NCBI GenBank assembly: GCA_018660305.1
Contig: JABJKO010000091.1
Span: 1 to 24,196, forward strand
From: Rhodospirillaceae bacterium
GTDB lineage: Bacteria; Pseudomonadota; Alphaproteobacteria; MPNO01; UBA2964
Direction: 5' to 3'
Length of the DNA: 24,196 nucleotides
In this document: piece by piece, positions 18,786 through 21,712 of the stretch
How positions within the stretch are numbered: position 1 is the first letter of the stretch
Layout: every line of letters starts with the position of its first letter
Position numbers and translations under genes: made by a program
Notes under the pieces: model-generated
Databases searched by the model: none
The model's input: the letters and a program-made list of their open reading frames with translations, nothing else
What the model was told of the DNA's origin: nothing

Positions 18786-19220
18786 ATGTCAGAGTCTGAT
18801 GAAGCCCGTGCCGCGCTGGAAAAGCTGGTGGTTAATTTCACCGAAGCCTTCAACCGCGAGGACATCGACGAGGTCATGTCCTATTTCGCCGAGGGTGCCC
18901 TCTATGACGAGCTCAACGACGTTCGCCATGTGGGCGCCGACGCCATCCGCGCCGCCTTTATTCCGCAATTTTCAGGCAAATACGGCCGCATGCGATTTCA
19001 TACGGAGGATTTGTTTCTCGATGTGGAGGCCGGCAAGGCGTTGATCCGCTGGGTTCTTACCATGGAGGAAGACACGCGGCAGGGCGCCTATCGCGGGCTC
19101 GATATCCTGCATTTCGAGAACGGCAAGCTGGTGGAAAAGCACACCTACTGCAAAGCCAAAATTCCCTTCATTCACAAGAAGGCGGACATGGAGCAGGAAG
19201 GCAAATGGCCCCTACCATGA
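18786..19220 (+). CDS. SnoaL-like/NTF2-like small protein
   Basis: 144 residues with the compact cone-fold pattern: an opening helix with FTEAFNREDIDEVMSYFAEGALYDE, then strands ending in RGLDILHFENGKLVEKHTYC (about 103-122). Members of this superfamily include ketosteroid isomerase, SnoaL cyclases, lumazine-like hydrolases and many non-enzymatic binding proteins, so function is unassigned. The last 16 nt overlap the start of the AhpD-like gene at 19205, which suggests translational coupling and a shared job with the predicted selenoprotein. The Shine-Dalgarno is weak. Another ATG at 18778 is in a different frame. Confidence 0.8.
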   Translation: MSESDEARAALEKLVVNFTEAFNREDIDEVMSYFAEGALYDELNDVRHVGADAIRAAFIPQFSGKYGRMRFHTEDLFLDVEAGKALIRWVLTMEEDTRQGAYRGLDILHFENGKLVEKHTYCKAKIPFIHKKADMEQEGKWPLP

Positions 19221-20332
19221 ATATCTCCTACGACCAGGCGCCTTATGACGTCCGCCAGGACATCGCCCATACCCACTGCAATACCTGGGATCACATCGCC
19301 GCGCCGGGCACCTGGCTGAGCGGGGAGCGCCGGGTCGCCATCGCCGCGGAGACCCGCCATGCCGCCGGCTGTGCGTTGTGTCAGGAACGGAAAGCGGCCC
19401 TGTCGCCCTATGCGGTCAAGGGAGACCACGACGATCTGGGTGATCTGCCGGATGCCGTCATTGAGATGATCCACCGCATCGTGACCGATCCGGGGCGTAT
19501 CACCCAGAGTTGGGTCGACGGCCTGATCGCCGGTGGCATTGCTGAGCCCGATTACGTGGAGATGGTCGGTGTGATCGTTCACACCATGTGTGTTGATGGA
19601 TTCACAGACACCCTGGGCATGCCGCGTCATGCGTTGCCTGACCCCAAGAAGGGCGAACCGACGCGTATTTTGCCGTCCGGCGCCGAGACGGACACCGCCT
19701 GGCTGCCCACCATCCCGCCGGAAAATGCCGATGAGACATTGCTGGCCATCTACCCGCAGAATGTGGGGGATTCACCCAATGCGCCCCACGTGCGCCGCGC
19801 CATGAGCCTGGTGCCGTCGGAAGCGGTCAGTTTTTTCAAACTCAACGACGTGCAGTATTTGCCGCCGGAAGCCATGTGGAATGTGGAGGTCAATCCGCGC
19901 TCCATTTCCAAGAGCCAGGTGGAGCTGACCGCCAGCCGGGTGTCGTCCCTCAACGGGTGCTTTTACTGAACCGCCAGCCATTCCGACAGGCTCCGGGTGA
20001 GCTTGCAAAGCAACAGCGACATGGACCTGCGCATCGTGACCGGCGCGGCCGATGAGGTGGATATCGAACACGGCGCCCTGTTCGCCCGTTTTGCCGAGGC
20101 CGCCATAACGGGCACGGTTACCCAACTGGCGGCGGTGCGGGAGGCGCTCTACCGGGAGCTTGGGAGTGACGCGGTGGTCGACGCCGCGGGCGTCGTCGCG
20201 CTGTTCAACGCCATCAACCGGGTGGCCGATGCTATCGGCATCCAGTTTGAGGACTCCAAGCTGGAGCGCACCGCCGATCTGCGCGACCATTTGGCTCTGG
20301 ACGACATGCAGACCGCCCGACTGCCGGAATGA
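19205..20332 (+). CDS. predicted selenoprotein: tandem AhpD/carboxymuconolactone-decarboxylase-like protein, Sec at residue 255 (TGA 19967-19969)
   Basis: 375 residues if the in-frame TGA at 19967-19969 is read as selenocysteine; 254 if it is a stop. There are two AhpD-like halves. The first (about 38-145) has CALC at 56-59. The second (about 230-370) has the full relay E240-C252-x-x-U255-x-x-x-H259, matching the AhpD Glu/Cys-x-x-Cys/His spacing. The sequence reads LTASRVSSLNGCFY, TGA, TASHSDRL, and later ALFNAINRVADAIGI, a typical C-terminal helix of the family. The frame is uninterrupted to TGA at 20330. A SECIS-like hairpin follows the internal TGA. AGGAAG lies 4 nt before the ATG and the start overlaps the SnoaL-like gene. 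Likely role: reduction of a peroxide or disulfide with a selenenyl-sulfide intermediate. The physiological substrate is unknown. The alternative is a nonsense mutation from a Cys codon. Confidence 0.85.
19967..20005 (+). promoter_or_regulatory. candidate bacterial SECIS element following the in-frame TGA
   Basis: CAGGCTC at 19987-19993 pairs with GAGCTTG at 19999-20005, giving seven pairs including one G-U. The five-base loop CGGGT (19994-19998) has G at its second position. The loop starts 24 nt after the TGA. Bacterial SECIS elements lie inside the coding region just after the UGA and have a short helix with a G-bearing loop about 16-37 nt away, which is met here. The pairing was done by eye; competing short helices exist (AGCC 19976-19979 with GGCT 19989-19992). 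Confidence 0.7.
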
Positions 20333-20362: not shown

Positions 20363-21235
20363 TCAGTCGGCCGCCTGCAGCTTGTCCTGGGTCTTGGTGT
20401 CGAAGTCCGACGCATCGTGGCGTTCGTGTAGTTGCATATCCAGGTCGCCGCGATGCTTGTTGACCATGCGGCCGCGTTTTACCGTCTCACGGGCATCGAT
20501 CTCCTTGGTCCAGCGCATGGCGTTGGTATAGATCTCCGCATCGAGGAATTCCGCCGCGTCGTACTGGCGGTTCAGCAGCGCCCCGCCATACCAGGGCCAG
20601 ATGGCCATGTCGGCGATGGTGTATTCGTCGCCGCACATATAACGGTTATCGGCCAGGTGCCGGTCAAGCACGTCGAGCTGACGCTTGGTCTCCATGGTAA
20701 AGCGGTCGATGGCGTATTCGATTTTCACCGGCGCGTAATGATAAAAATGGCCAAATCCGCCGCCGAGATAGGGCGCGCTGCCCATTTGCCAGAACAGCCA
20801 GCTTAGGCATTCGGCCCGGTCGGCCGGATCAGATGGCAGAAACTCCCCGAATTTCTCCGCGAGATAGAGCAGGATGGCGCCGGACTCAAAGACCCGCGTG
20901 GGTTTCGGCGTGCTGTAATCCATCAGGGCGGGGATCTTGGAGTTGGGATTCACCCCGACGAAGCCGCTGCCGAACTGATCGCTATCGCCGATCCTGATGA
21001 TCCAGGCGTCGTACTCGGCGCCGGTGATGCCCTTTGCCAGCAATTCCTCCAGCAGGATCGTGACCTTCACGCCGTTGGGTGTCCCCAGCGAATAGAGCTG
21101 CAGCGGGTGCTCGCCCACCGGCAGTTCCTTGTGATGGGTCGGCCCGGCGATGGGACGGTTGGTCGTCGCGAAAGGCCCACCGGTTTCCGATTCCGGTTTC
21201 CAGACCTTGGGTGGCGTGTAGGATGTACCTGTCAT
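20363..21235 (-). CDS. yghU: YghU-type glutathione S-transferase (nu class, disulfide reductase)
   Basis: 290 residues, the usual YghU length. Near-identical stretches to what I know of Escherichia coli YghU include HPLQLYSLGTPNG (43-55), GFGHFYHYAPVKIEYAI, GDEYTIADMAIWPW and LHERHDASDF near the C-terminus. Thr52 and Asn54 replace the usual Tyr, Ser or Cys of other GSTs and hold two glutathione molecules in YghU; ES at 117-118 belongs to the glutathione site. The family shows disulfide-bond reductase and organic-peroxide activity. The start is set at the ATG at 21235 (MTGTSYTPPKVW), which matches the family N-terminus; the open frame continues upstream without support. It is convergent with the predicted selenoprotein and only 30 bp from it. 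A second, unrelated GST is at 15205. Confidence 0.93.
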   Translation of the reverse strand: MTGTSYTPPKVWKPESETGGPFATTNRPIAGPTHHKELPVGEHPLQLYSLGTPNGVKVTILLEELLAKGITGAEYDAWIIRIGDSDQFGSGFVGVNPNSKIPALMDYSTPKPTRVFESGAILLYLAEKFGEFLPSDPADRAECLSWLFWQMGSAPYLGGGFGHFYHYAPVKIEYAIDRFTMETKRQLDVLDRHLADNRYMCGDEYTIADMAIWPWYGGALLNRQYDAAEFLDAEIYTNAMRWTKEIDARETVKRGRMVNKHRGDLDMQLHERHDASDFDTKTQDKLQAAD

Positions 21236-21712
21236 GTCGCGTGAACTCCATTCTGTTGCAATCCTGCCGTGGTGGATCACCCCGGCTGTTCCCGATCCAA
21301 TCGGTGGGCTAATTCGCCAAGGCCATATGGCGCAATGAGTTTACCCATAAATGAGTTTACCCATATAGGACCCTGTAGCGCCATTGGAAGGCCGATGAAC
21401 CGACTGATTGCAGGCGCAGTCGGTACCGAAAACTTTGCGTGATCAATTTGCCGGAAGCGTATCGTTAGGAGGTCCGTCGGAGAAGCTCTGGGTCATCCCG
21501 GGCACGGGGAAGTTAGTTATCCCGTTTGATGCCGCCGCAGATCCGAAATAAGTCAGAAGCTGTAGCGGCGAACACAGGTTTCTATGTCTGCTTCACCACC
21601 AAAAGCGGGCGTGACGATCACAGAATTCACGAATACTTGAGGAATATTCAAAATTATGTGACCATCTTCCCTACAATAAACGAAAATATACCAACGATAG
21701 AGCGCTTAAAAA
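21236..21712. other. 477-bp intergenic region
   Basis: Divergent spacer between the YghU-type GST and the TPR protein, becoming AT-rich toward 21640-21712. The only structure I see is the 16-bp tandem repeat listed separately. An open frame at 21526-21789 has no ribosome site and no family resemblance and is not called. No tRNA or clear terminator was recognised. Promoters for both neighbours must lie here. Confidence 0.7.
21334..21365. repeat. perfect 16-bp tandem direct repeat
   Basis: AATGAGTTTACCCATA occurs twice with no spacer (21334-21349 and 21350-21365), about 100 bp upstream of the yghU-like start. It could be a duplicated operator or a slippage product. Confidence 0.75.

Follow-up and report, generated by a model that had tools for sequence, protein, structure and literature searches.

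An in-frame TGA at the catalytic column of a two-lobed AhpD-related gene from an alphaproteobacterium is very probably read as selenocysteine

Introduction

Does an in-frame TGA at the catalytic position of an AhpD-like gene end that gene, or is it read as selenocysteine (Sec)? The question is raised by a 24,196-nucleotide contig of a Rhodospirillaceae bacterium (JABJKO010000091.1, assembly GCA_018660305.1; this whole stretch is the window in what follows), whose forward strand carries, from 19205 to 20332, a frame that reads ...SQVELTASRVSSLNGCFY-TGA-TASHSDRL... and ends at the TGA at 20330-20332, its single internal stop being the TGA at 19967-19969. A preliminary description of this DNA had proposed that the internal TGA occupies the second catalytic position of an AhpD-like relay and encodes Sec. 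We consider it very likely that this TGA is decoded as Sec in a gene of the NF041238 family, giving a predicted two-lobed AhpD-type peroxidase by which organic hydroperoxides would be reduced through Sec255 and Cys252. The Sec reading in itself is strongly supported by comparative sequence evidence, i.e., the family match, the recurrence of the TGA, the association with SelB, a downstream hairpin and the selection acting on the frame.

Results

Read through the TGA, the gene (19205..20332, plus strand) encodes 375 amino acids with Sec at residue 255. As had been anticipated of gene callers, the standard list of open reading frames (ORFs) splits it into 19205-19969 (254 amino acids) and a GTG-started frame at 19997-20332 (111 amino acids). 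The start codon would be at 19205 or, alternatively, at 19217; the alignment with homologue P0009 favours 19205, because P0009 begins there and lacks a Met where 19217 would fall. The window also uses TGA as a regular stop, which closes 11 of the 20 complete genes listed. Read-through past those ends covers 3-38 codons in ten of the 11 cases and 196 codons in one (a GST gene, antisense to the selenoprotein gene), and two TAG ends are likewise followed by long read-throughs of 129 and 294 codons; a 120-codon open extension is therefore not decisive on its own.

The joined protein matched the NCBIfam model NF041238 (AhpD_rel_CFYUT, "alkylhydroperoxidase-related (seleno)protein") with 438 bits against a cut-off of 175, residues 16-369 aligning with positions 1-356 of the 357 in the profile, and its CxxU motif is CFYU, with the in-frame TGA at 19967-19969 as U. 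Judged by sequence, the gene belongs to an already catalogued bacterial selenoprotein family. NF041238 appears in a 2026 review under the name 'AhpD-related protein (hypothetical protein 1, Sargasso Sea metagenome)', with CxxU and one Sec (PMC13188914), and in the 2005 paper on the Sargasso Sea selenoproteome the family called hypothetical protein 1 comprises four sequences that share a CXXU motif (PMC1088965). Since the review equates NF041238 with the 2005 family, and the profile spans nearly the whole protein, this is a known selenoprotein family, and the earlier suggestion that the tandem form may be undescribed does not stand. The window gene resembles the family in its full-length match, CxxU motif, in-frame TGA and a hairpin like a selenocysteine insertion sequence (SECIS); nothing sets it outside, its hairpin loop being CGGGU as against the usual CGUGN.

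At E 0.001 Pfam assigned no family to the joined protein, and tblastn gave no match among PLSDB plasmids. The protein remained far below the threshold of AhpD proper (TIGR00777 ahpD; 22.4 bits vs 191.95) and below that of the peroxidase-related enzymes (TIGR01926; 59 bits, cut-off 81.8). A profile search of Protein Data Bank sequences matched 6k40 at E 2e-15. It has in common with AhpD of M. tuberculosis, PA0269 and the TIGR01926 enzymes the relay E-x11-C-x-Y-C/U-x3-H; those proteins, however, are single-lobe chains with Cys and no Sec, whereas the window protein is two-lobed. Other CxxU AhpD-like selenoproteins (AhpD-like 1 COG2128, AhpD-like 2 / CMD pfam02627, NF041047 and the YciW-related NF053654) likewise have Sec second in CxxC, according to the sections of the source available, but are separated from the window protein by the library cut-offs, the match to NF053654 being merely E 0.34.

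Two protein searches (best 120 of 164 and best 120 of 433 matches) yielded 188 distinct proteins, P0002 being the window's own. Among those listed, 186 of the 188 break off at the residue just ahead of the Sec column (the script's pattern finds 185, and P0169 is the other), as would be expected if gene callers terminate at the TGA. The full-length homologue P0031 (361 amino acids) has Cys at this column. At the nucleotide level, 54 fetched loci together with the window gave 55 sites, the family loci L054 and L056 yielding no site by the script's filter. In 55/55 sites the same columns were held by E, C, TGA, T and H, the window codons being those of the relay Glu E240 (19922..19924), of C252, the partner of U255 (19958..19960), the TGA itself as the second residue of the putative CxxU redox pair (19967..19969) and of the relay His H259 (19979..19981), all on the plus strand. 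The claimed spacing of E240, C252, position 255 and H259 was thus confirmed in frame 19205-20332, and the unrelated residues at column 255 for which the preliminary description had suggested looking did not occur in these sites.

Locus L001 lies in genome G001, an alphaproteobacterial metagenome-assembled genome whose class (385 genomes) and order (27 genomes) were surveyed. NF041238 was present in 27 of the 385 class genomes (E <= 1e-30), in 48 rows, every one of which has exactly one internal TGA. In the order, 22 of the 27 genomes gave 50 rows, 48 with TGA (one also with TAA) and two partial matches without. Five genomes (G387-G391) have five or six NF041238 matches each, an unusual family expansion, although in G387 two of the six are halves of one place. 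Between the window and L002, the Nei-Gojobori nonsynonymous (dN) and synonymous (dS) rates were 0.23 and 1.31 before the TGA, and 0.33 and 1.51 after it. In ten other pairs dN was also well below dS on both sides of the TGA, with dS saturated in several. Downstream of the TGA, too, the frame evolves under purifying selection.

SelB (TIGR00475) exceeded its cut-off in 54 of the 385 class genomes, i.e., in all 27 with an NF041238 gene and in 27 of the 358 without (Fisher p 8e-27, which ignores kinship). The Rfam gathering score for tRNA-Sec was not discriminating (225/385 pass), and the genomes were divided instead, post hoc, at the gap from 66.1 down to 54.9 bits; with kinship again ignored, strong matches of at least 66 bits occurred in 26 of the 27 gene-bearing genomes, G367 being the exception, vs 29 of the 358 that lack the gene. 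SelA and SelD were over cut-off in all six of the relatives' genomes tried. Seven of the 27 family-bearing genomes have one copy at most about 2.4 kb away from the tRNA-Sec gene (G008:C741, G228:C550, G124:C19, G092:C73, G186:C80, G280:C50 and G358:C22), and SelD-like (AIRS) ORFs adjoin the copies at L018, L019, L033 and L034, while a SelB ORF adjoins that at L020.

Downstream of the TGA, at 19987..20005 (plus strand), is a bacterial SECIS (bSECIS)-like hairpin with a stem CAGGCUC/GAGCUUG and the loop CGGGU. Bacterial SECIS constraints, as given in the accessible part of the review, are a loop of 3-9 nt, a stem of 4-16 bp, a G within the first two nucleotides of the loop, a spacing of 16-37 nt and a minimum free energy <= -7.5 (PMC13188914). 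The window hairpin falls within them, with 5 nt, 7 bp, a G at the second position, 24 nt and, folded alone, -7.8 kcal/mol. Rfam at gathering thresholds gave no match in the window, which is not a test for bSECIS. RNAalifold, applied to 54 sequences 51 nt long, returned only a short consensus stem of -1.0 kcal/mol.

Covariation of the hairpin was assessed on 52 distinct rows against 500 shuffles and against slid versions of the stem. Pairing cells amounted to 86.8% (shuffles 81.4 +/- 1.1; slid versions at most 49.2%), covariation to 0.200 (shuffles 0.116 +/- 0.014; slid versions at most 0.126), and cells changed on both sides to 16 (shuffles 6.4 +/- 2.1), none of the 500 shuffles reaching any of these values; slid versions do reach similar two-sided counts. 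Codon choice after the TGA was nearly uniform, with CTC for Leu at +8 in 54/54 sequences, CGT for Arg at +9 in 51/54 and GCG for Ala at +10 in 42/42, whereas in the rest of these genes the three codons account for 24%, 11% and 41%, respectively. Judged from these frequencies, the bias shows that synonymous codons after the TGA are constrained at the RNA level. The comparative evidence for the hairpin is stronger than the constraint fit or the fold energy.

With residues numbered from the ATG at 19205, E240, C252, position 255 and H259 have the spacing of the AhpD relay. The attacking residue of AhpD is its second cysteine. In the pages available on Pseudomonas aeruginosa PA0269, the relay consists of Glu36, Cys48, Tyr50, Cys51 and His55 (PMC3141380). 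The spacing of E240 is that of Glu36, and since PA0269 has Tyr50, Tyr254 of the window protein fits too, so that the five-residue proton relay of AhpD (E, C, H/Y, C, H in a helical hairpin) is represented in full by E240, C252, Y254, U255 and H259. A mechanism may be proposed on this basis. The sequence provides its first step, a TGA in the catalytic column followed after 24 nt by a conserved hairpin; by analogy with relatives, SelB and Sec-tRNA(Sec) would read this TGA, the hairpin serving as SECIS. On the model of AhpD and Sestrin, Glu240, Tyr254, His259 and a water would activate the selenol, which would then attack the peroxide, and Cys252 would close a selenenylsulfide. An outside thiol donor, or the CxxC of the N-terminal lobe as a proposed donor, would then re-reduce it.

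That N-terminal AhpD-like lobe (19217..19729, plus strand; 171 amino acids, modelled alone) contains a CxxC at 19370..19381 (plus strand; Cys codons 19370-19372 and 19379-19381), with the relay Glu and His absent. The motif is invariant in the 51 rows of alignment A2, and C..C was found in 50 of 55 loci, all 50 of which lack both an E at -12 and an H at the position of the relay His. Both lobes are predicted to be AhpD-like, and the relay is kept in the C-lobe only; the proposed AhpD-like family, CxxU relay geometry and tandem-lobe form are supported. The best full-length structural match of the predicted fold was human Sestrin2 (at a Foldseek E of only 0.046), and the two lobes, which share with Sestrins the arrangement of two AhpD-like lobes in one chain, are predicted to pack as in Sestrin2. 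The 39 Protein Data Bank sequences that the family profile matched at E <= 10 include no Sestrin, i.e., no kinship was found at the sequence level, and the protein is placed as Sestrin-shaped, not as a Sestrin. Sestrin2 (SESN2), in the descriptions available, has its active relay in the N-terminal Sesn-A with a single Cys125, whereas the window protein has it in the C-lobe, with Sec instead of Cys. Bacterial fused AhpD dimers offered for comparison in the accessible part of one paper are YciW and proteins of Corynebacterium ureicelerivorans and Comamonas aquatica (PMC11429811); the latter two are said there to be without N-lobe cysteines, in contrast to the CxxC of the window protein. A two-lobed, Sestrin-like architecture of NF041238, with an N-lobe whose CxxC stands without the Glu/His relay, was not found described in the literature searched, as far as the texts were available.

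Directly upstream, and overlapping the start, is a SnoaL_2-domain gene (18786..19220, plus strand; PF12680, 1e-13), a neighbour rather than a demonstrated part of the system. It had been suggested as a characteristic partner; tblastn (1e-5) gave no match to it in the 64 loci retrieved, most of them with flanks of 1.5 kb, among which the relatives closer than L001 (P0003-P0014, 70-90% identity) are not represented, and none was present in the ten neighbours scanned. The coupling to SnoaL was dropped. Neighbours of the family vary from copy to copy, being SelD-like, SelB or catabolic genes. Some copies (L039 and L043; L046-L052) follow a gene for a ring-hydroxylating dioxygenase beta subunit (by Pfam, L043) or for an amidohydrolase (checked, L050), which hints that some paralogues act in catabolism. 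Converging on the selenoprotein gene is a glutathione-dependent disulfide-bond oxidoreductase (20363-21238, minus strand; NF008731, 511.6 bits, cut-off 325), and a protein 71% identical to it occurs near the L064 copy; the antisense read-through of 196 codons belongs to the stop of this gene. A run of 25 C closes the contig (24172-24196) and is probably a sequencing or assembly artefact.

Discussion

Several observations weigh against a Sec-dependent peroxidase. The full-length homologue P0122 (356 amino acids) has Arg at the Sec column (NDCFYRTSAH) with its N-lobe CxxC kept, possibly a Sec loss or an inactive form. The genomes and loci are related, so that the counts are not independent, and the evidence on sel genes comes from the genomes of relatives, not from the window organism's own. 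The SECIS constraints are also satisfied at 99/1500 plus-strand and 88/1500 minus-strand positions (6-7%), and, for the isolated hairpin, at just 26 of the 55 family sites. Window pieces of 44, 54 and 80 nt choose other folds (z vs shuffles -0.50, 0.13 and 0.50); with z-scores near 0, thermodynamic stability was rejected as proof of a SECIS. Two of the five covariation measures fail to exceed the shuffles, pairs with two-sided change (3) and further pair types (11) being equalled in 158/500 and 166/500, respectively; the outermost pair is open in 31/52 rows. The window has CGG at +9 (loop CGGGU), as in 3/55 sites, 48/52 rows beginning CGT or AGT. Finally, the predicted peroxidase activity, substrate and reductant are drawn by analogy.

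One alternative is a Sec protein of another kind, i.e., a thiol-disulfide/selenol oxidoreductase, or an enzyme acting on some other electrophile, in aromatic or acyl-CoA catabolism. We regard this as possible though doubtful, given that all five AhpD relay positions are kept and that the neighbours change between copies. That the TGA is a true stop, leaving a truncated pseudogene or the 254-amino-acid N-terminal product alone, is very improbable. It is favoured by the use of TGA at 11 of the 20 listed gene ends and by the window hairpin not being the minimum-energy fold; against it stand the single in-frame TGA in 48/48 family rows, the same selection after the TGA as before, SelB in all 27 genomes with the gene, and the hairpin covariation with its codon bias, and the 254-amino-acid product would be without both the residue paired with C252 and the relay His. 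Still less credible is a sequencing error, or a TGA that specifies some other amino acid (Trp, or Cys under an altered code), for which the Cys and Arg homologues (one full-length protein each) and the artefact-like poly-C might speak: TGA recurs at this column among the relatives, in unrelated assemblies and in 55/55 sites, which makes an error very unlikely, other window genes use TGA as a normal stop, and the Sec machinery is present in relatives.

In public databases the gene is split almost throughout the family, in 186 of the 188 listed homologues, so that most records lack the C-terminal catalytic half. Quite speculatively, and as a rather unlikely extension, NF041238 might be the bacterial, selenium-using counterpart of the Sestrin architecture, with Sec as the peroxidatic residue of the C-lobe in almost all copies and the N-lobe CxxC kept to resolve or regenerate the C-lobe selenenylsulfide intramolecularly; the copies beside selB, selC or selD would then point to a Sec-dependent enzyme at the core of the response of these alphaproteobacteria to peroxide or selenium stress. 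The architecture, a bacterial two-lobed AhpD protein with predicted Sestrin-like packing, is the more useful part of the finding, and Sec dependence makes the role of the second lobe directly testable through mutation of the N-lobe CxxC.
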